64,000 nt of DNA, from positions 2,046,001-2,110,000 of the forward strand of contig NZ_CP007139.1 of the NCBI RefSeq assembly GCF_000724625.1. The letters are read 5' to 3'. Below are positions 8,045-60,451 of this stretch, piece by piece. The notes beneath the pieces are model-generated. The model was not told where the DNA came from, did not search any database, and was given only the letters and a program-made list of their open reading frames with translations. A program made the position numbers and the translations under genes. How positions within the stretch are numbered: the stretch's first letter is position 1; each line of letters begins with the position of its first letter. The stretch is from Fimbriimonas ginsengisoli Gsoil 348. Its GTDB lineage: Bacteria > Armatimonadota > Fimbriimonadia > Fimbriimonadales > Fimbriimonadaceae.

Positions 8045-8135
8045 GGTTCAGAGCCGCCTCTTTCCCCGGGTAGGAAACCCGGGGCTAGTTTCTGACACCC
8101 TTCCAGGGTGGATGCCCGGAGGGCAGAATCCCGAC
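8045..8135. repeat. Intergenic palindromic repeat, family R1, copy 2
   Basis: Same core as the copy at 1819-1941: CCCCGGGTAGGAAACCCGGGG, then GGCTAGTTTCTG and an imperfect CACCCTTCCAGGGTG hairpin, then GATGCCCGGAGGG. It lies between the convergent HAD and histidine kinase genes, as copy 1 lies between convergent genes. Confidence 0.75.
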
Positions 8136-21516: not shown

Positions 21517-21573
21517 TCCGTAGCTCGTGAAAAATCTACGTGGCGGACGGCGCGGTCGTTGGCACGTTGGGGT

Positions 21574-21738
21574 GGGTTAGCGGTTGGCGGTTAGCGGTTA
21601 GCAGTTCGATCCGGACACCGCTACGGTTCGCAGAGTGTCACAGCCTGCTCACCTACGAGGGGTAATCTTGGCCATCGTGGTTGCGTTAGCGGTTCGGAAT
21701 GAATTAACCGCTAACCGCTGACCGCCAACCGCTAACCC
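21574..21738. repeat. MITE-like element with TTAGCGG-type terminal inverted repeats, copy 1
   Basis: The left end starts GGGTTAGCGGTTGGCGGTTA and the right end reads, reversed, GGGTTAGCGGTTGGCGGTCA; the match continues to about 33 bp. Each terminal repeat is itself made of GGTTAGC-type units. The 100-bp middle shows no ORF. Its right edge is 5 bp from the aroF ATG. A shorter relative lies at 37494-37565. Confidence 0.75.
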
Positions 21739-21743
21739 ATCCC

Positions 21744-22775
21744 ATGATCATCGTAATGCAATTAGGCGCGCCTCAAGAGCAGATTGAGGCGGTGGCGGAG
21801 ACGCTCCGGGCGCGTGGAATCGAGCCGCTCATCCTCCCCGGCGAAGACCGGTGCGCGATCGGTATTCCGGCATCGCTGAGCAGCGACCAGCGCTACGACC
21901 TCGAGGCGATGCTCGGCGCGATGGAAGGGGTGAGCAAGGTCACCCAGACGAGCCATCCTTACAAATTGGCTTCTCGAGAGTTCAATCGAGAGGACACCGT
22001 CGTGCGGGTTCGCGACGTCCAGATCGGCGGGGGAACGTTCGTGGTCATGGGCGGCCCGTGCTCGGTGGAATCCATGGAGCAGTTCCGCGCTTCGGCGGAG
22101 ATCGTGAAAAATTCCGGCGCGACGATTTTGCGCGGCGGCGCATTCAAGCCCCGCACCTCTCCTTATTCGTTCCAGGGCCTCGCCGAAGAAGGGCTGAAGA
22201 TCATGAAGCAGGTCAGCGACGAAACTGGCCTCGTGACGATCTCCGAGGTGATGAGCGGAGACATGGTGCCGCTGGTGGCGAAGTACATCGACATCCTCCA
22301 GATCGGGGCGCGATCGATGCAGAACTTCCCTTTGCTGATCGAAGCCGGACGAAGCGGCAAGCCGGTATTCCTCAAGCGCGGCCCGTCGGCCCCGATCGAC
22401 GAGTTTCTACTGGCGGCGGAATATGTGCTGAGCCAAGGCAACCCGAACGTGATCCTCTGCGAGCGCGGCATCGTCCCGCTCGATCGCACCTACACGCGCA
22501 ACACGCTTGACCTCGCGGCGGTGCCGGTGCTGAAGGAATACACCCACCTCCCGGTGATCGTCGATCCATCACACGGAACCGGCGTGGCCCGATACGTGGC
22601 CCCGATGGCGAAGGCCGCCATGGTAGCCGGCGCCGACGGACTCATGATCGAGACGCATCCCAATCCCAAGGAAGCGCTTAGCGACGGCTCGCAGGCGCTC
22701 ACCACCGACAAATTTACGAAGCTGATGGATGAGCTCCGTTCGCTCGCCGGTTTCTTGGGCAAGAAAATGTCTTAG
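21744..22775 (+). CDS. aroF: 3-deoxy-7-phosphoheptulonate (DAHP) synthase, single-domain beta type
   Basis: Condenses phosphoenolpyruvate and erythrose 4-phosphate, the entry to the shikimate pathway. 343 residues: a ferredoxin-like N-terminal regulatory domain (1-70, as in the Thermotoga-type enzyme) and the TIM barrel with GPCSVES, LRGGAFKPRTSPYSFQG, QIGARSMQNF, LKRG and DPSHGTG, covering metal and substrate sites. There is no Shine-Dalgarno sequence: a mobile-looking repeat ends 5 bp before the ATG, so expression signals may come from it. Confidence 0.95.
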   Translation: MIIVMQLGAPQEQIEAVAETLRARGIEPLILPGEDRCAIGIPASLSSDQRYDLEAMLGAMEGVSKVTQTSHPYKLASREFNREDTVVRVRDVQIGGGTFVVMGGPCSVESMEQFRASAEIVKNSGATILRGGAFKPRTSPYSFQGLAEEGLKIMKQVSDETGLVTISEVMSGDMVPLVAKYIDILQIGARSMQNFPLLIEAGRSGKPVFLKRGPSAPIDEFLLAAEYVLSQGNPNVILCERGIVPLDRTYTRNTLDLAAVPVLKEYTHLPVIVDPSHGTGVARYVAPMAKAAMVAGADGLMIETHPNPKEALSDGSQALTTDKFTKLMDELRSLAGFLGKKMS

Positions 22776-32449: not shown

Positions 32450-33841
32450 CTACTCGATCTTGCGCTTGGGAATCGAGTCGTCCTTGCGCGTCTTCTCCGC
32501 CGCCGCTTCCGCTCGGTCGCAGAATTGCTCGGGGGTGATTTGCTTGTTCAGCATGGATGTAAGGGCGTCTTGGATCTCCTTGTCCATCACTTTGTAGTAG
32601 TGACGCGCCTGGTAGCAGTAGACCGCCTTGCTATCGTGGAACGCCTTCGCCGGAACCTGCAGGGTTTCCGGAAGCTTGGTGTCGTCGCTCCCCTTGATCG
32701 CCATTAGGGTCCCCTTCTCCTCCACGAACCGCTTGGCTACCGGCAGCGAAGTCATGTACTTGTACAGGGCGACCGCCGCCTTCGGATTCTTGGCCGCGCT
32801 CGGGATCATCCACGGCTCGATGTCGATCATGAGGGCGCTCGGGTCACCCTTGCCGTCCTTGAAGACGGGCGGGAGCATGAACTGCATCTTGGCTCCGGGC
32901 GGGGTCACGTTCTTCATCTCGCTCTCGAGCCAGGTTCCGCAAGGGATCATCGCGGCGTGGCCGTTGAGGAACTCGGTTTGCGACTCGGTGTGGCTGAGCC
33001 CGACGGCTCCTTCTTGGTAGAACCCTTTATCGCCAAGCTCGCGAATCATCTTCGCCGCCTGCAGCATCGCAGGTGATTTCCAGGCCCCAGGGACGAGGTT
33101 CTGAGCGTCGTTGATCGCTTGCAGCCCGCCCACGCTCTGGCACCAAGGCAGCAGCATTCCGAACATCATGTAGTACGGGTATTTGCCCTGGAAGGTGATC
33201 GGCGCGATCCCCTTCGCCTTGATCTTGGGGCAAAGCTCCAGCAGCTCTTCGTACGTCTTCGGCACCGTCCAGCCGTTCTTGGCGAACACGCCGGGGTCGT
33301 ACCACCACCCCATTACGATCATGTAGTAGGGCAGCACATACTGCTTCCCGTTCAACTGCCCCAGCTTCAACAGCGCCGGCTCGAAGGTATCGCGCCACTT
33401 GCCGGTCCCCTCGTACGGCTCGGAATCGAGCGCCGCATCCAAGCTGTAGAGCTGTCCCTCCTGCACCAGACCCCAGTGGTCCATGTCCCATCCGGGAAAC
33501 ATGAGGTCGGGCGTGTCGCCGGAGACCAGCCGGGGGCGCAGCTTTTCCCACACGCGGGGGTCGCCTTCGACCTTAACTTTGACGTCCGGGTTCTTGGCCA
33601 TGAACTCGTCGGCCGCCTTTTGGTAGAAGTCGATTCCGAAGCCGCCCTTGAACGCCTGCACCTCGACGTTGCCGGTCAGCTTTTCGCCCGGCTTCGCCAC
33701 CGGAACCGGCTTAGCGGCCACCATGGCATCGTCGCTCGGGCTGCTTCCCGTGCCACTGGCCGATTTCCCTTCGCCCGAACATCCCGCAAGTAATAACGCG
33801 AGCGACGTCGCTCCCGCCCAGATCCAACCGTTCTTTGTCAT
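32450..33841 (-). CDS. Sugar ABC transporter solute-binding lipoprotein (family 1)
   Basis: A 463-residue extracellular solute-binding protein. A lipoprotein signal ends LLLAGCSGE. The fold signature includes GDTPDLMFPGWD (about 110), a GWWYDPGVFAKNGWTVPKT segment and EFLNGHAAMIPCGTW. Family 1 proteins bind oligosaccharides. No permease or ATPase gene is nearby, so it is an orphan binder within the glycan locus. GAGGGA upstream is its ribosome-binding site; it diverges from the oxidoreductase gene by 35 bp. Confidence 0.88.
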   Translation of the reverse strand: MTKNGWIWAGATSLALLLAGCSGEGKSASGTGSSPSDDAMVAAKPVPVAKPGEKLTGNVEVQAFKGGFGIDFYQKAADEFMAKNPDVKVKVEGDPRVWEKLRPRLVSGDTPDLMFPGWDMDHWGLVQEGQLYSLDAALDSEPYEGTGKWRDTFEPALLKLGQLNGKQYVLPYYMIVMGWWYDPGVFAKNGWTVPKTYEELLELCPKIKAKGIAPITFQGKYPYYMMFGMLLPWCQSVGGLQAINDAQNLVPGAWKSPAMLQAAKMIRELGDKGFYQEGAVGLSHTESQTEFLNGHAAMIPCGTWLESEMKNVTPPGAKMQFMLPPVFKDGKGDPSALMIDIEPWMIPSAAKNPKAAVALYKYMTSLPVAKRFVEEKGTLMAIKGSDDTKLPETLQVPAKAFHDSKAVYCYQARHYYKVMDKEIQDALTSMLNKQITPEQFCDRAEAAAEKTRKDDSIPKRKIE

Positions 33842-33876
33842 GTTTCTTCCCTCGTGTGCGCTATCGTATTGGCATT

Positions 33877-34863
33877 ATGCTGAAGGTTGCCCTCGTTGGC
33901 ATCGGCTTCATGGGCCGCATGCACGCCAGCGTCTACGAAACTCTCTCCAACGCGCAGATCGTCGCCATCGTCGACAAAGACCCCAAGCGTCTCGAGCCGT
34001 TCGGCGTCAAGGGTTTTGCAACGGTAGAGGAGGCGCTCACCGCCGTGGAGATCGACGCCGTCGACATCTGCCTTCCGACCGACCTCCACCGAGAGTTTAC
34101 GGTGAAGGCGGCCAACGCGGGGAAACATGTTTTGTGCGAAAAGCCGATGGCGCTATCGGTCGGTGAGGCCGACGAGATGATCGCCGCCGCCGAACGGAAC
34201 GGGGTGCGGCTGATGATCGCCCACTGCATCCGCTTCTGGCCCGAGTATGCGTACGTCACCCGCCTTCAGCGAGAGGGGACGCTCGGACGGCTACTGTCGA
34301 TCAACCTGACCCGATACGGAGAGTTTCCAAGCTGGTCGAGCGATAATTGGCTGGCGGATGCCAAGCGTGCCGGCGGCGGCGCGCTGGACATGCACATCCA
34401 CGACACCGACTACGCCCTCGGCCTGCTCGGCGAACCGGAGGAGATGGCGGCGTTCGGCACCGAAGACGCCCGCGGCATGAGCCAAATGTTCACCACGATG
34501 CGATTCGCCGACGGATCGGTGGCGCACCTGGAAGGAGGGTGGAATCTGCCGCCGAAAACGCCTTTCAAGATGGCGTTTCGAGCCATCTTCGAGCGGGGCG
34601 CCGCGATTATGGATGGCGGACCGCTGACGATTTACGCGGAAGGGGCCGAGCCGCAGACGCCTGAATTCGAGAAGATGTCGACCGCCGGAGGTGGCAACAT
34701 CAGCGACCTTGGCGGCTACTACCACGAGATCAAATACTTCGTGGACCGAGTGTTGTCAAGTGAGCCGTTCGAAGTTACCGATGCCCAGTCGTCTCGGCGT
34801 TCGCTCGAAGTGACGTTGGAAGAGATCCACCAGGCCCATGGCCGCCAGGCGGCCTGCGCGTGA
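33877..34863 (+). CDS. Gfo/Idh/MocA-family NAD(P)-dependent oxidoreductase
   Basis: A 328-residue sugar or inositol dehydrogenase-like protein. The Rossmann motif VALVGIGFMGRMHA opens it, LCEKPMAL carries the conserved Lys near 94, and the C-terminal half is the usual beta-sheet substrate domain with DMHIHDTDYA holding the catalytic His. Substrate unknown, probably a sugar released by the neighbouring glycosidases. Stop and next GTG start overlap by 4 bp (GTGA), coupling it to GH35. Confidence 0.92.
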   Translation: MLKVALVGIGFMGRMHASVYETLSNAQIVAIVDKDPKRLEPFGVKGFATVEEALTAVEIDAVDICLPTDLHREFTVKAANAGKHVLCEKPMALSVGEADEMIAAAERNGVRLMIAHCIRFWPEYAYVTRLQREGTLGRLLSINLTRYGEFPSWSSDNWLADAKRAGGGALDMHIHDTDYALGLLGEPEEMAAFGTEDARGMSQMFTTMRFADGSVAHLEGGWNLPPKTPFKMAFRAIFERGAAIMDGGPLTIYAEGAEPQTPEFEKMSTAGGGNISDLGGYYHEIKYFVDRVLSSEPFEVTDAQSSRRSLEVTLEEIHQAHGRQAACA

Positions 34864-37514
34864 TCCTAGCGACCCTCGCGGCAGTGGCGTTAACCCGCGT
34901 CGGCATTCCGACGGCGGAGTCGCATCAACGCGTGATGCCCCCCAAACGGGCGTTGGGCGTCCACGGGGCTCCAGCTTCTTTCCCGTATCCCGAAGGGATT
35001 CCGTCCCCCAGCGAAGGGTTGCGAGGCACGAGCTACCCTGGTACCGACGCCGACAACCTCATCTACCCCAACGGGGTTGCGTCCGGAAAAGGCCGCAACC
35101 CCGTTGGGGTAGAAACCTTAGCGGCGGTCAGCACCAGGGTAGGACGCCGCTACGCGGCTTACCAACCCTTCGCTAGGGGACGCTATCCCTTCGGGATAGG
35201 AGACGGCGCGATCGCTTTCACCACTCCGAAGGCTCCCGCGCTTGGCGGGGCTCCGTCTGCTCCGAGAGCTTCCTTCGTCGCCTCGGGCGACAGGTTCCTC
35301 CTGAACGGGAAGCCGTTCGTCATCCGTTCGGGCGAGATGCACTACCCCCGGGTGCCGCGGGCGTATTGGCGCGACCGGATGCGGAAGGCGAAGGCGATGG
35401 GGCTGAACACGATCTGCACCTACGTCTTCTGGAGCCTCCACGAGCCGAAGCCCGGGAAGTTCGACTTTAGCGGCAACCTAGACCTGGCGGCGTACATCCG
35501 CACCGCTCAGCAAGAAGGGCTCTACGTTATCGTCCGGCCGGGGCCCTACATTTGCACCGAATTCGATTTCGGCGGCCTGCCCGCCTGGCTTCAAAAGGAC
35601 CGGTCGATGGTGGTCCGGAGCAAGGATCCGAAGTTCCTCCGGTATACGCAACGCTACTTCGACAAGGTGGGCAAGCTGCTCAAGCCGCTTCTCATTCAGA
35701 ACGGCGGCCCGATCATCCTTACTCAGGTCGAGAACGAGTACGGTTCGTACGGCGCCGACCACGTCTACATGGGCGCGGTGCGCGACGCCTTGATTCACGC
35801 CGGTTTCAGCGGCCAGCTTTTCACCTCCGACGGACCCGGCCAGGGAATGCTGAGCGGAGGAACGTTGCCGGGGATCCCGGCCGCGGTCAATTTTGGCGGC
35901 GGGGGTGAGAGCGCGATCGCGGAGCTGAAGAGATTCCGCCCCGACGCTCCGAAGATGGTGGGCGAGTACTGGTGCGGCTGGTTCGACCACTGGGGCGAGC
36001 GGCATCACCGGACCGCTGCCGCCCCACACGCGAAAGACATCGAGTGGTTCATCAAGAACGACGTCTCGTTCAACCTCTACATGTTCCACGGCGGCACCAG
36101 CTTCGGCTTCATGGCGGGAGCCAACGGCGACAAGAACTCGTACCAGCCGGACGTCACGAGTTACGACTACGACTCGCCTCTGGACGAGTCGGGCCGCGTA
36201 ACGGAGAAGTACCGGGTGTTCCGCGACACGATCGCTCGCGGGAGCGGAGAGACCCTGCCGCCGGTGCCGGCTTCGCCGGCGCCGATCGCCTTGCCGACGT
36301 TCAAGCTTCGATACGACTTCAACCTCGACAATCGCCCTGCTTCCCGGGTGGTGGAATCCACGGCTCCCAAAACGTTTGAGGAACTTGGCCAGTCGGGCGG
36401 GATGGTGATCTATTCCGCGCAGACAAAGCTGTCGGGCCCCCAAGTGCTCGAGGTCCAGGGGCTCCACGATTTCGCGGTGGTGTCCGTGAACGGAAAGGTC
36501 GCCGGCACCCTCGATCGACGGACTTCTAGCCCTCGGCTCTCCCTGGTGCTTCCTTCAAATGGAAGCACGATAGAGCTCGCCGTAGAAATGCACGCCCGAA
36601 TCAACTTTGGGCATGAGCTGGCAAACGAGCGAGAGGGGATCGTGGGCAAGGTGCTTCTTGGCGAACAAGAGCTACAAAATTGGAGCCAAGCCGCCTACCC
36701 GCTAACCGAGGCGCCAAAAACGTTTTCCTGGGGGGGCGCCGGCACTCCGCGTTCGCCTCTCATTTACCGGGGGGAGTTCAGCGTCTCCCACCCCGGCGAT
36801 ACGTTCCTCGATCTCGGGAACTGGACCAAGGGATATGTATGGGTCAACGGACATAACCTTGGCCGATACTGGACCGCGGCCGGGCCGCAACGGACGCTCT
36901 ATCTTCCGGGATGCTGGATGAAACCGGGCTCGAACGAGGTGGTGATCATCGATGAGGGACCTCTGCAAAAGGTTCCCACCCTGGTAGGTCTCGACCATGC
37001 GATCCTCGACGCCCGTCCGACAGCGGGACTTAGACCGATCCGGAAGCCCGGTCAAACCGTGGACCTCACCCGCCAAACCGTCGCCGCCCAAGGCGAATTC
37101 ACACCGAAAGTCATGTGGCAATCGGTGAAGTTGCCGGAGGACGACGTTCGGTACGTGGCGTTCGAGGTGCTGAGCGAGCACGGGCAGGGCCCGTTCGCCT
37201 CCGCCGCCGAAATCGAGCTGATCGGTCTCGACGATAAGCCGATCAAGGGGGTCCATGTCGTCTACGCCGACAGCGAAGAGCTCGACAACGAGAACGGCTC
37301 CGCCGCCAACGTCGTCGACGGCCAGCCCACCACGATGTGGCACACCCAGTGGGGCGACGCCCAGCCCAAACCGCCCCACCTCCTGGTCCTCGACCTCGGC
37401 ACGATCACCCAAATCAAAGCCCTCCGCTACCTCCCAAGAGCCGACGCGCCGAACGGCCGAGTAAAGGCGTATCGGATCTATATGAGCACGATGGGGTTAG
37501 CTGTTGGCGGTTAG
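34860..37514 (+). CDS. Secreted GH35 beta-galactosidase with in-frame palindrome insertion and clipped C-terminus
   Basis: An 884-residue enzyme: signal peptide, GH35 TIM barrel from about residue 140 with acid/base Glu in ILTQVENEYGSYG and nucleophile Glu in MVGEYWCGWFDHWG, jelly-roll domains, and a C-terminal F5/8 (discoidin)-like domain. Between signal and barrel, residues of about 41-114 are encoded by a nested palindromic repeat. The discoidin-like domain stops abruptly after AYRIYMST: the last codons and the TAG come from a terminal-inverted-repeat element at 37494. Starts with GTG coupled to the upstream oxidoreductase gene. Probably still active because the catalytic barrel is intact. 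Confidence 0.9.
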   Translation: MILATLAAVALTRVGIPTAESHQRVMPPKRALGVHGAPASFPYPEGIPSPSEGLRGTSYPGTDADNLIYPNGVASGKGRNPVGVETLAAVSTRVGRRYAAYQPFARGRYPFGIGDGAIAFTTPKAPALGGAPSAPRASFVASGDRFLLNGKPFVIRSGEMHYPRVPRAYWRDRMRKAKAMGLNTICTYVFWSLHEPKPGKFDFSGNLDLAAYIRTAQQEGLYVIVRPGPYICTEFDFGGLPAWLQKDRSMVVRSKDPKFLRYTQRYFDKVGKLLKPLLIQNGGPIILTQVENEYGSYGADHVYMGAVRDALIHAGFSGQLFTSDGPGQGMLSGGTLPGIPAAVNFGGGGESAIAELKRFRPDAPKMVGEYWCGWFDHWGERHHRTAAAPHAKDIEWFIKNDVSFNLYMFHGGTSFGFMAGANGDKNSYQPDVTSYDYDSPLDESGRVTEKYRVFRDTIARGSGETLPPVPASPAPIALPTFKLRYDFNLDNRPASRVVESTAPKTFEELGQSGGMVIYSAQTKLSGPQVLEVQGLHDFAVVSVNGKVAGTLDRRTSSPRLSLVLPSNGSTIELAVEMHARINFGHELANEREGIVGKVLLGEQELQNWSQAAYPLTEAPKTFSWGGAGTPRSPLIYRGEFSVSHPGDTFLDLGNWTKGYVWVNGHNLGRYWTAAGPQRTLYLPGCWMKPGSNEVVIIDEGPLQKVPTLVGLDHAILDARPTAGLRPIRKPGQTVDLTRQTVAAQGEFTPKVMWQSVKLPEDDVRYVAFEVLSEHGQGPFASAAEIELIGLDDKPIKGVHVVYADSEELDNENGSAANVVDGQPTTMWHTQWGDAQPKPPHLLVLDLGTITQIKALRYLPRADAPNGRVKAYRIYMSTMGLAVGG
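34982..35200. repeat. Nested palindromic element inserted in frame in the GH35 gene
   Basis: Four blocks pair in nested order: TATCCCGAAGGGAT (34986) with 35184; TCCCCCAGCGAAGGGTTG (35004) with 35163-35180, 17 of 18; CTACCCTGGT (35033) with 35133; and a perfect 19-bp block at 35063-35081 with 35094-35112. About 219 bp, or 73 codons, and open in the GH35 frame. Edges are approximate. Confidence 0.85.
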
Positions 37515-37565
37515 CGGTGAGCAATCCGGAAACCAGAGTCAAACCGCTAACTGCTAACCGCTAAT
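37494..37565. repeat. TTAGCGG-type inverted-repeat element, copy 2, at the end of GH35
   Basis: Left arm GGGTTAGCTGTTGGCGGTTA and right arm (reversed) ATTAGCGGTTAGCAGTTAGC are made of the same GGTTAGC units as the element at 21574. The GH35 stop TAG (37512-37514) lies in the left arm and the GH20 ATG is 10 bp past the right arm. Confidence 0.75.
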
Positions 37566-45578: not shown

Positions 45579-46226
45579 GCTCTTGGTATCTGACGCGGCA
45601 GTTCGCCGAGGGGAACAAACTTTTCGGAGCGATTCGGCGATGGGCGGCATTGGCAGACCTTATAGACTGCGGTGGCCTGCCACCGCTTTTGTAAGCGAGC
45701 CCGCGAGCGTGCGGATAGACCCCCTACGTCCGAGGGGCGTGTAGACGCAGGTTGGCTCATACCTGCGCCCGGTGTACCTTCGGTGCACCGGGATCATCGG
45801 TGAGGGCGCCGACGCTACGTCCAGAGCCTTGTCGTCGGAGGCCAAACCGATTGCCCCGCCGTCGGGCAGGGTCCGGCCACCGGCCGGGCAATCTCTACGG
45901 ACTCTTTGGAAGGACATGTGCTCGCGCCTGCGGGCAGCGCCCCGACGATCCGCATGTTTGGTCAAAGGGCGAAACTTCCCGCGCAGGTACGAACCAACCT
46001 GCGGCTCCTGGTCGGTGCCATCGAACCCGAGCCCGCGAGGGTCTTCAGAAATTAGCCCGGTGGTCGCTCCCGCGACCCCGGGTTAAATGGGGCCGATGCA
46101 GATCGACCCGGGACGGGTCGAAGAAGCCTGATACCGGGGCGGGCCGCCCCGGATACCCACGGGCGAGCCGCCCGTGCCACCGAATAGGTCTCCCCTCCTC
46201 ACGGTTTGAGGAGGGAGACACACGAA
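45579..46226. repeat. 648-bp gene-free region packed with palindromic repeats
   Basis: In order: an R4 unit (45663-45710, ACTGCGGTGGCCTGCCACCGC) that also occurs inside the gene at 59078; CCCGGTGTACCTTCGGTGCACCGGG (about 45769); an R6 terminus CCGACGCTAC (about 45810); several further stems including GGGGCGGGCCGCCCC and CGGGCGAGCCGCCCG (about 46138-46175); and TCTCCCTCCTCAAACCGTGAGGAGGGGAGA read on the minus strand (as two arms) just after the M3 peptidase stop, a likely terminator. Open frames here are products of the repeats. Confidence 0.65.
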
Positions 46227-55741: not shown

Positions 55742-55767
55742 CAGCGGCCCGAGCTACTCGCGGCGGG

Positions 55768-55876
55768 CGGCACACGTAGGTGCCGGCTACACGCGCTGCG
55801 CGCGTAAAAAAACGGGTCCATGCATTGGCGCCGCCCTCTACGGCGGAGCCGTGTAGACGGCACCTACGTGTGCCGC
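55768..55876. repeat. REP-like inverted repeat upstream of the transposase
   Basis: GCGGCACACGTAGGTGCCGG (55768) pairs with its reverse at 55849-55876; the arms match over about 27 bp with one mismatch. Between them are a short A-run and a further CGCCGCC/GGCGG stem. The right arm ends 24 bp before the transposase start. Confidence 0.8.
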
Positions 55877-55900
55877 GACTGTGTCTCGTATGATTGCAAC

Positions 55901-56396
55901 GTGCAGCAACCGATCCGTGCGAAGAAACACCGTTTGCCGGAGGCTGCCTATATTGGCGAGAAAACCGTCCACATCACGGCGAACGTGGAGCATCGCCGAC
56001 CGCTGTTCACCGATCCCGCGGTCGTCCAGGCATTCCTCGAAATACTGCGAGCCTGTTCTGCGGCGGAACGATGTTTGGTGCCTATCTGCTGCTTCATGCC
56101 CGACCATCTGCACCTATTGATGCAAGGCACAAGTGCGAACAGCCGGCCGAAGGCGGCGACGGACGCCTTTAAAGGCCGCTCTGGACATTGGCTGCTGCAG
56201 AACCGGCCGAACTGGAATTGGCAGGAAAGCTATTACGACACGAATCGTTCGGCGAGGCGAAGATTGGAAGCGGAAGGCGTTTTACATTTTTCAAAACCCC
56301 ATGAGGCGGGGAATCGTGGTCGATCCGTACGAATATCCTTTCACCGGGAGCATAGGATACGACCTTGTCGAGATGTTGCACGAGATTTCGTGGTGA
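55901..56396 (+). pseudogene. REP-associated tyrosine transposase (RAYT), frameshifted
   Basis: A Y1 transposase of the RAYT type. GTG 55901 starts an N-terminal part with the HUH pair in FMPDHLHLLM and the catalytic Tyr in WQESYYD. The frame then fails: the family's C-terminal segment continues one base later, as RIVRRGEDWKRKAFYIFQNP then MRRGIVVDPYEYPF, to a stop at 56396. The shift lies between about 56230 and 56255, with no homopolymer there. Expected length about 165 residues. RAYTs mobilise the REP repeats that flank them, and matching repeats flank this one on both sides. It looks recently disabled. Confidence 0.8.
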
Positions 56397-56404
56397 CAGA
56401 TATG

Positions 56405-56526
56405 GCTTCGCCGGGCGGCACACGTAGGCGACGGCTACACGGCTTCGCCGTGCGGCACACGTAGGTGCCGGTTACACGGCTTCGCCGTAGCCGAAGTAAT
56501 CTACATTCCCGGCTTCGCCGTAGCCG
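56405..56526. repeat. Direct copies of the REP-like unit downstream of the transposase
   Basis: GCGGCACACGTAGG occurs at 56416 and 56452 in the same orientation as the left arm at 55768, each followed by a CTACACGGCTTCGCCG-type hairpin. CGGCTTCGCCGTAGCCG occurs twice more, up to 13 bp before the HD gene. Confidence 0.75.
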
Positions 56527-59077: not shown

Positions 59078-60451
59078 ATGAGTGCAGCGAAGAAAGGAGA
59101 CGTGGGATCGAAGGCGGGCCGGTCGGAAGTCAAGGGGCGGGAGCGAACCCCGTCGAAGAAGGTGAATGCGGCCAGAACAATCGGAAACGAGCCTATTCCA
59201 GACACAAATGAGGCTCGAACAAAGCGAGTTTTATCCGCTTTTGCGGCTGGCCCGGCCGGGAATGCAAAGGGTACGAAGCCGGCGAAGTCTTTAGACTGCG
59301 GTGGCCAGCCACCGCTTTTGACCAGCGAGCCTGCGAGCGCCAGGTCCACTCCAGCAGTGAAAAAGACAAAGAGCCCCTCGGAGCCGAAAGAGCCTCGTCC
59401 CCCGGCCCCGGCGACGGTTAAGCAGGAGGCCAAACAAACGAAGTCGAACGCAAAGAAGAGCGACGCTGTCGCGGCAACCCCCGATAAATCGCTGCTACAA
59501 GGCGCCAAGCCGGTAGGCACGAAGGCCGGGAAGGCAAGAGCAACCAGCACAGTAGGTCCGGTTTCCAACGCATCGGGGCCTGAGGCCGAGAAGGCTAAAA
59601 CGGTTGGGAGGCCGAGGCGAGTCGTCGACGGGATGTCGGCCGTGTCAACAACGGTGGGCGCCGTGTCCGCGCCGAAAAAACCCGCGTCCAAGAAGCCGGA
59701 AGGCGAGGTCAAGCCGGTTCCCGTGGTGAAGAAGGTCCGAGCCGTTGCCGAGCCAAACCCTGGTCTAACCGCCCGAGAAGCGGAAAAGAACACGAAGCCG
59801 AAAGTGTCGGCGCCCACGCCTGCCAGCGCCAAGGTTGGATCTAAGCCACCTACGCGTGGGCAGGGGCCGACGGTGAAGAGTTCGAGAAGGGTGGCGGACT
59901 CCCCGAAAGACAAAGTTCCAATCGCCGCTCCAAAGCAAGGCAAGGCCCGAAAGACTACGCCATCTTCGCTCCCTGAGCCGGCCCGGTCTAAGGCAGTCGA
60001 GGGTAAGCCCAAGCCGGTCGGAAAGGGTTCGAAGGCGGCCAAGTCTCCGGTGTCAAAGCGTCCGGCCGGACTCCCTCACCCCCAACCCCCTCTCCCTCGT
60101 CCGGCACAAGCATCCGGAGGAGGGAGAGGGGGCTCCGGGTCGAAGGCGGCGGCTCCAAAGCGAAAACCGCGAAAGAAGCCGGAACATGCCGTCCTCTATA
60201 TCGCTCGAGGAGGGAGCCCGCGGGGGGCGCCTGACTATGAAGTGCCATTTCCGACCCGTCCACAGGCGCTGGCGTTTCTCGCCAATCAGCATGGGTTGAC
60301 GACGGAAGAGGTGCGGAAGCTGGCGAAGGGATCTAGCCTCCGCCTTAAGCGCCAATGGCATGGTTCGGAAGCTTGCGCGGTGCGGGAGATACGAATGACG
60401 CCGGATGAGGCGCAAAGAGCGCTTTTTGGCGAACTTTCAAGGGGTTCCTAG
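59078..60451 (+). CDS. Lys/Ala/Pro-rich disordered protein with a small folded C-terminus
   Basis: A 457-residue very basic protein. Residues 1-375 are low-complexity Lys, Ala, Pro, Ser and Thr, like histone H1-type or ribosome-associated tails. Residues about 376-457 look folded (HAVLYIARGGSPRG, then FPTRPQALAFLANQHGLTTE and MTPDEAQRALFGEL). Two stretches are translated intergenic repeats: SLDCGGQPPLLTSEPASARS (residues 71-90, family R4) and a Pro/Gly-rich piece near 331-355 (family R5). A nucleic-acid-condensing role is inference. Confidence 0.65.
   Translation: MSAAKKGDVGSKAGRSEVKGRERTPSKKVNAARTIGNEPIPDTNEARTKRVLSAFAAGPAGNAKGTKPAKSLDCGGQPPLLTSEPASARSTPAVKKTKSPSEPKEPRPPAPATVKQEAKQTKSNAKKSDAVAATPDKSLLQGAKPVGTKAGKARATSTVGPVSNASGPEAEKAKTVGRPRRVVDGMSAVSTTVGAVSAPKKPASKKPEGEVKPVPVVKKVRAVAEPNPGLTAREAEKNTKPKVSAPTPASAKVGSKPPTRGQGPTVKSSRRVADSPKDKVPIAAPKQGKARKTTPSSLPEPARSKAVEGKPKPVGKGSKAAKSPVSKRPAGLPHPQPPLPRPAQASGGGRGGSGSKAAAPKRKPRKKPEHAVLYIARGGSPRGAPDYEVPFPTRPQALAFLANQHGLTTEEVRKLAKGSSLRLKRQWHGSEACAVREIRMTPDEAQRALFGELSRGS
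59292..59340. repeat. R4 palindromic repeat inside a coding sequence
   Basis: TAGACTGCGGTGGCCAGCCA and CCGCTTTTG then GCGAGCCTGCGAGCG match the intergenic copy at 45663-45710 with few differences. It stays open in the host gene's frame and codes for residues 72-88. Confidence 0.8.
60069..60139. repeat. R5 palindromic repeat inside a coding sequence
   Basis: CCCTCACCCCCAACCCCCTC at the left and GAGAGGGGGCTCCGGG at the right, joined by TCCGG...CCGGA; this is the R5 unit in reverse orientation. It adds about 24 Pro/Gly-rich residues. Confidence 0.7.

Follow-up and report, generated by a model that had tools for sequence, protein, structure and literature searches.

One locus of Fimbriimonas ginsengisoli offers a clean single case in which to ask whether a secreted enzyme can incorporate a mobile palindrome and remain functional. 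The locus lies in a window of 64,000 nt (the whole stretch of DNA analysed here), in which a preliminary description had noted a set of nested inverted repeats inside the reading frame of a GH35 enzyme. We find the repeats where that description placed them, in a 223-nt palindrome of slightly larger extent (34981–35203 rather than 34982–35200), with the following arms and units:

34981–35021 / 35163–35203: outer arms, 41 nt, 88% complementary
35033–35048 / 35127–35142: intermediate arm pair, 88% complementary
35062–35084 / 35091–35113: inner arm pair, 23 nt, 96% complementary, with a perfect 20-bp core
35062–35113, no strand assigned: central hairpin of the dimer, from the inverted repeat and the fold, with the perfect 20-bp stem core
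34981–35086, plus strand: element unit 1, three hairpins, covariance-model match of 117.5 bits (best in the genome) and blastn family member
35089–35203, minus strand: element unit 2, inverted copy, covariance-model match of 98.7 bits, supported by alignment

The palindrome thus consists of two units arranged head to head, forming a dimer. Its RNA fold has a predicted energy of −157 kcal/mol, compared with −91.6 ± 4.8 kcal/mol for shuffled sequences (z = −13.6), which excludes a chance origin. A likeness between the flanks (GCTCC...AGCTTC), considered as a target-site duplication, did not rise above codon shuffles and was dropped.

A search of coding and intergenic sequence throughout the genome (5,231,762 bases, one contig), as the preliminary description had proposed, revealed a dispersed family. 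Blastn with the element identified 48 places, and a covariance model identified 33 units above 60 bits at about 26 loci. The merged and aligned matches define a family unit of roughly 105–115 nt with three hairpins: H1, a larger H2 that often follows (C/T)AG, and H3. The paired positions covary, with 33 cells changed on both sides, a value reached in none of 500 shuffles, and slid controls gave 0–5. Dimers of two units in inverted order, like the window copy, occur at seven sites, and the other sites carry single or partial units. The nearest sister of the window element is a copy at 4830903 that is 88% identical (blastn) across the whole dimer, and dimers therefore appear to spread as units.

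The window copy is the only one of about 32 sites in this genome that lies within a gene; all the others that were checked are intergenic. ORFs called over these other copies are spurious: the copies lie in intervals next to genes that are clearly genuine, among them leuS-, citrate-synthase- and trmFO-like ones. Three congener genomes contain 59 units, a single one of which overlapped an ORF, that of ispE; the repeat is situated upstream of the true ispE start, and this candidate for a second coding copy was corrected to extragenic. Because the other copies are extragenic, the family is not a maker of protein segments, and the window copy is an exception.

These locations bear on the likeness to the RPE palindromes of Rickettsia that the preliminary description had drawn. 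Intragenic REPs, some of them in frame, are known in Rickettsia conorii and other bacteria (PMC3733652), and what the window copy shares with them and with RPE is the effect, an in-frame palindromic repeat that adds tens of residues; the likeness does not extend to the identity of the family or to the frequency of coding insertion. The element is not an RPE: it is built of a three-hairpin unit of about 110 nt, belongs to a family that surrounds a Y1 transposase gene of its own and is extragenic in its other checked copies. Compared by description rather than by sequence, the two differ in size, host and transposase link, and RPE lies in frame in many genes, whereas coding copies are exceptional here, with one only. 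That the palindrome was selected for making protein segments, as an equivalent of RPE, is accordingly very improbable, with one of about 32 sites in a gene in its own genome and, after the ispE correction, none of the 59 congener units, even though the window copy is in frame, stop-free and in a linker. Across the seven full-length dimers, about 11 of the 42 frames are open, which could be counted in favour of such an equivalence; it also makes an open frame by itself unremarkable.

Several Y1_Tnp genes are present in the genome, and one is embedded in the repeat family:

4494039–4494482 (genome coordinates): Y1 HUH transposase gene, 148 aa, PF01797 (E 5.7e-21), with the motifs DHVH and YVENQEEHH; NCBIfam name transpos_IS200

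This gene has two family units on each side, pointing inward, in the order H1-H3-gene-H3-H1. The window dimer reproduces this layout minus the gene, which suggests a miniature non-autonomous derivative without a gene of its own, and we infer that the 4494039–4494482 transposase mobilized it. The genome also holds a decayed transposase remnant at 1741796–1742422 (59 residues, 61% identical) that retains flanking units of the same family.

The explanation we consider likely is that the palindrome is a non-autonomous REP/MITE-like dimer of this Y1-transposase-associated family, which landed in frame in the gene for a secreted GH35 enzyme and is probably translated as a tolerated linker. The transposase would recognize single-stranded DNA folded into a hairpin with a foot of TAG type and would copy or move the dimer, mostly into intergenic DNA. 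The window copy would have entered the 5′ part of the GH35 gene, between signal peptide and catalytic barrel, where the frame used has no stop, so that about 74 residues of disordered linker would be added and tolerated by the enzyme. The features of the gene are as follows:

33835–34863, plus strand: upstream oxidoreductase-like ORF, from the ORF list
34860–37514, plus strand: GH35 beta-galactosidase-like ORF, 884 aa, Pfam PF01301 (E 1.6e-116) at residues 146–458
34860–34931, plus strand: signal-peptide-like N-terminus MILATLAAVALTRVGIPTAESHQR, judged by its hydrophobic core (2.66) and not by a dedicated signal-peptide program
35204–35294, plus strand: linker from element to barrel, without in-frame ATG, GTG or TTG

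The GTG start of the GH35 ORF (34860) overlaps the TGA stop of the upstream ORF. No stop interrupts the 884-aa frame through the element, which contributes residues from about 41 to 115 (74–75 aa; about 73 in the preliminary description), with GTSYPGTDADNLIYPNGVASGK and NPVGVETLAAVSTR among the insert-encoded peptides in conceptual translation. Since the frame at the insertion site is stop-free, the element is probably translated. A caution applies to any coding reading, as palindromes at the N-terminal ends of ORFs often prove to be extragenic (PMC3733652), and the congener ispE case is exactly of this kind. In the window, by contrast, no start codon separates element and barrel: in-frame ATG, GTG and TTG are absent from 35019 to the barrel, and only ATC and CTG follow the element, which places any normal start within the element or upstream of it.

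The same codons weigh on another reading: the element would act in the GH35 mRNA as a regulatory RNA or attenuator on the 5′ side, with translation beginning from a non-standard start at or after it. Most copies of the family lie between genes, where they would be transcribed, and N-terminal REPs elsewhere are often non-coding (PMC3733652). Past the element, however, only the ATC and CTG codons could serve as starts, a protein begun there would have no signal peptide, unlike the orthologues, and no Rfam family matched anywhere in the 64-kb window. We regard this reading as improbable.

The comparison with orthologues, also proposed in the preliminary description, agrees with an insertion between a signal-peptide-like start and the catalytic barrel. 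The hydrophobic core of the N-terminus is like that in the signal peptides of orthologues, and fewer than 1% of 350 spurious ORFs attain its value, from which secretion of the enzyme may be inferred. The orthologues (the nearest about 53% identical) start 24–39 aa ahead of the FLLDGKP motif, compared with 145 aa here, and have no counterpart of the inserted segment. This absence, together with the lack of a start codon from element to barrel, makes it probable that the element is translated as a stretch of about 74 aa of the GH35 protein. Even minus the element, the N-terminus would be about 30–45 aa longer than in the orthologues.

These N-terminal features could also mean that the element broke the gene, its start and signal peptide being separated or lost, so that the ORF is a chance fusion yielding little or no enzyme. 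In keeping with this, the stable structure begins 120 nt downstream of the start, the pre-insert segment is conserved in no orthologue compared, and every other copy checked is extragenic. Yet the ORF runs for 884 codons without stop or frameshift, the signal-like N-terminus is present, and in the orthologue alignment the catalytic-type glutamates (in ENEYG and GE(Y/F)W) are conserved and more than 70 invariant columns are intact. Codon statistics, trained with the GH35 gene excluded, score frame 0 best of the forward frames throughout, though weakly; for the pre-insert segment they are compatible with coding, again weakly and not decisively. A broken gene is, in our view, unlikely, although less so than a regulatory RNA. 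For the reading of a translated linker, AlphaFold (27 aligned sequences) predicts residues 1–133 as disordered, with a pLDDT of about 25, and models the barrel confidently from residue 139. This is a faint hint that the insert is tolerated in a region of predicted disorder, as residues that lack homologues can be expected to score low.

In its mode of action the element resembles REP/REPIN or TIR dimers. With REP, REPIN and REPtron systems (RAYT or TnpA-REP), the family shares dispersed, mostly extragenic hairpins that often form inverted dimers. As in REPtrons, the repeats cluster around a Y1 HUH gene, the same repeats are dispersed, and every transposase is paired with a repeat family of its own. 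A foot lies 5′ of the hairpin in both, GTAG in REPs and N-TAG here, the latter degenerating to CCAG in some units. The units differ in size (20–40 nt in REPs; about 105–115 nt with three hairpins here) and in copy number (hundreds compared with tens), and the roughly 110-nt unit falls outside the canonical REP definition of a 20–65-nt hairpin with a GT[AG]G foot. Furthermore, unlike in REPtrons, the gene encodes a transposase of the subclass-1.2 type, and REPs have not been reported for that subclass (PMC6006769). Membership of CGTC-REP was also considered, as CGTCC follows hairpins 1 and 3 here; it is absent from most of the other transposases' families, and we regard it as a coincidence.

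TIRtrons are Y1 genes bounded by inverted repeats (Di Nocera 2013, PMC3733652), and the locus described here likewise has self-complementary inverted repeats around a Y1 gene (TIRYT), with dispersed single and dimeric copies. Most TIRYTs belong to subclass 2.1, not 1.2 (Quentin 2018, PMC6006769), and the GGGGWSAS motif of TIRs had no match by eye in the unit consensus of the one family inspected. IS200/IS605 elements (subclass 1.1) and their MITEs share the transposase family; here, by contrast, the transposases are divergent and low-copy, with long multi-hairpin inverted repeats and a Y---Q--HH motif.

The motifs DHVH, WQ and YVENQEEHH of the 148-aa transposase match, by motif comparison rather than by tree, those of TnpA-Y1 subclass 1.2 (DH[IV]H, WQ and Y---Q--HH, about 148 aa, low copy; PMC6006769, Table 1). 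When described in 2018, this subclass was recorded as having neither REPs nor IS200-type terminal structures (Quentin et al., PMC6006769). We sampled 49 relatives, mostly from Fimbriimonas genomes, with two other members of the order and three plasmids (Bacteroidota and Cyanobacteria). The motif, searched as Y--Q--HH, is present in 46. An inverted repeat pair flanks 37 of the 49 (within 500 nt, E < 1e-6), which contradicts the recorded trait, compared with none of 300 control positions; many of the genes counted are related to each other, and the control positions were not other transposase genes. TAG is by far the commonest foot 3-mer of the flanking hairpins (stems of at least 8), at 38 of 132 compared with 7 of 200 controls. 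On a Persicobacter plasmid (Bacteroidota), the gene has an inverted flank and a hairpin with a TAG foot, and the flanking repeat recurs in about ten dispersed copies. On a Bernardetia plasmid, the flank is also inverted, with no clear foot, and its repeat is present at three places; the cyanobacterial relative has neither an inverted flank nor the full motif.

In F. ginsengisoli, at least three further subclass-1.2-like Y1 genes (1573717 and the pair 2310823 / 18654) have distinct inverted repeats of their own, also dispersed, at 35 and 18 places. One Armatimonadota genome thus hosts several such transposases, with different repeat families. The link between repeats and a subclass-1.2-type transposase, in Armatimonadota, appears to be new relative to published work, in a search mostly of literature outside subscription journals and bioRxiv. 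We lean slightly towards a wider generalization, that TnpA-Y1 subclass 1.2 is a general REPtron-forming class. Inverted repeats with several hairpins and an N-TAG foot would bound its genes and propagate as miniature dimers, which would occasionally end up as exon-like linker peptides within secreted enzymes. For this orphan group of Y1 transposases, the repeats offer a probable substrate and a recognition signal that can be tested.

The window contains other repeats. A second Y1_Tnp gene at 55756–56490 (ORF 55820–56464; genome 2101964–2102236) is surrounded by inverted and direct GCGGCACACGTAGG repeats; its ORF may be frameshifted, since the tyrosine motif that would be expected was not seen in this frame. 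A 68-nt direct repeat (1872–1939 / 8062–8129, 90% identical) contains two hairpins (CCCGGGTAGGAAACCCGGG and CACCCCTTCGGGGTG) and is possibly another dispersed palindromic repeat. A 29-nt hairpin repeat, TAGACTGCGGTGGCC(T/A)GCCACCGCTTTTG, at 45663–45691 and 59292–59320, is REP-like and starts with TAG. Finally, GGTTAGCGGTTGGCGGTTAGCGG repeats occur in inverted orientation at 21568–21744 and 37494–37528, the latter at the 3′ end of the GH35 ORF.
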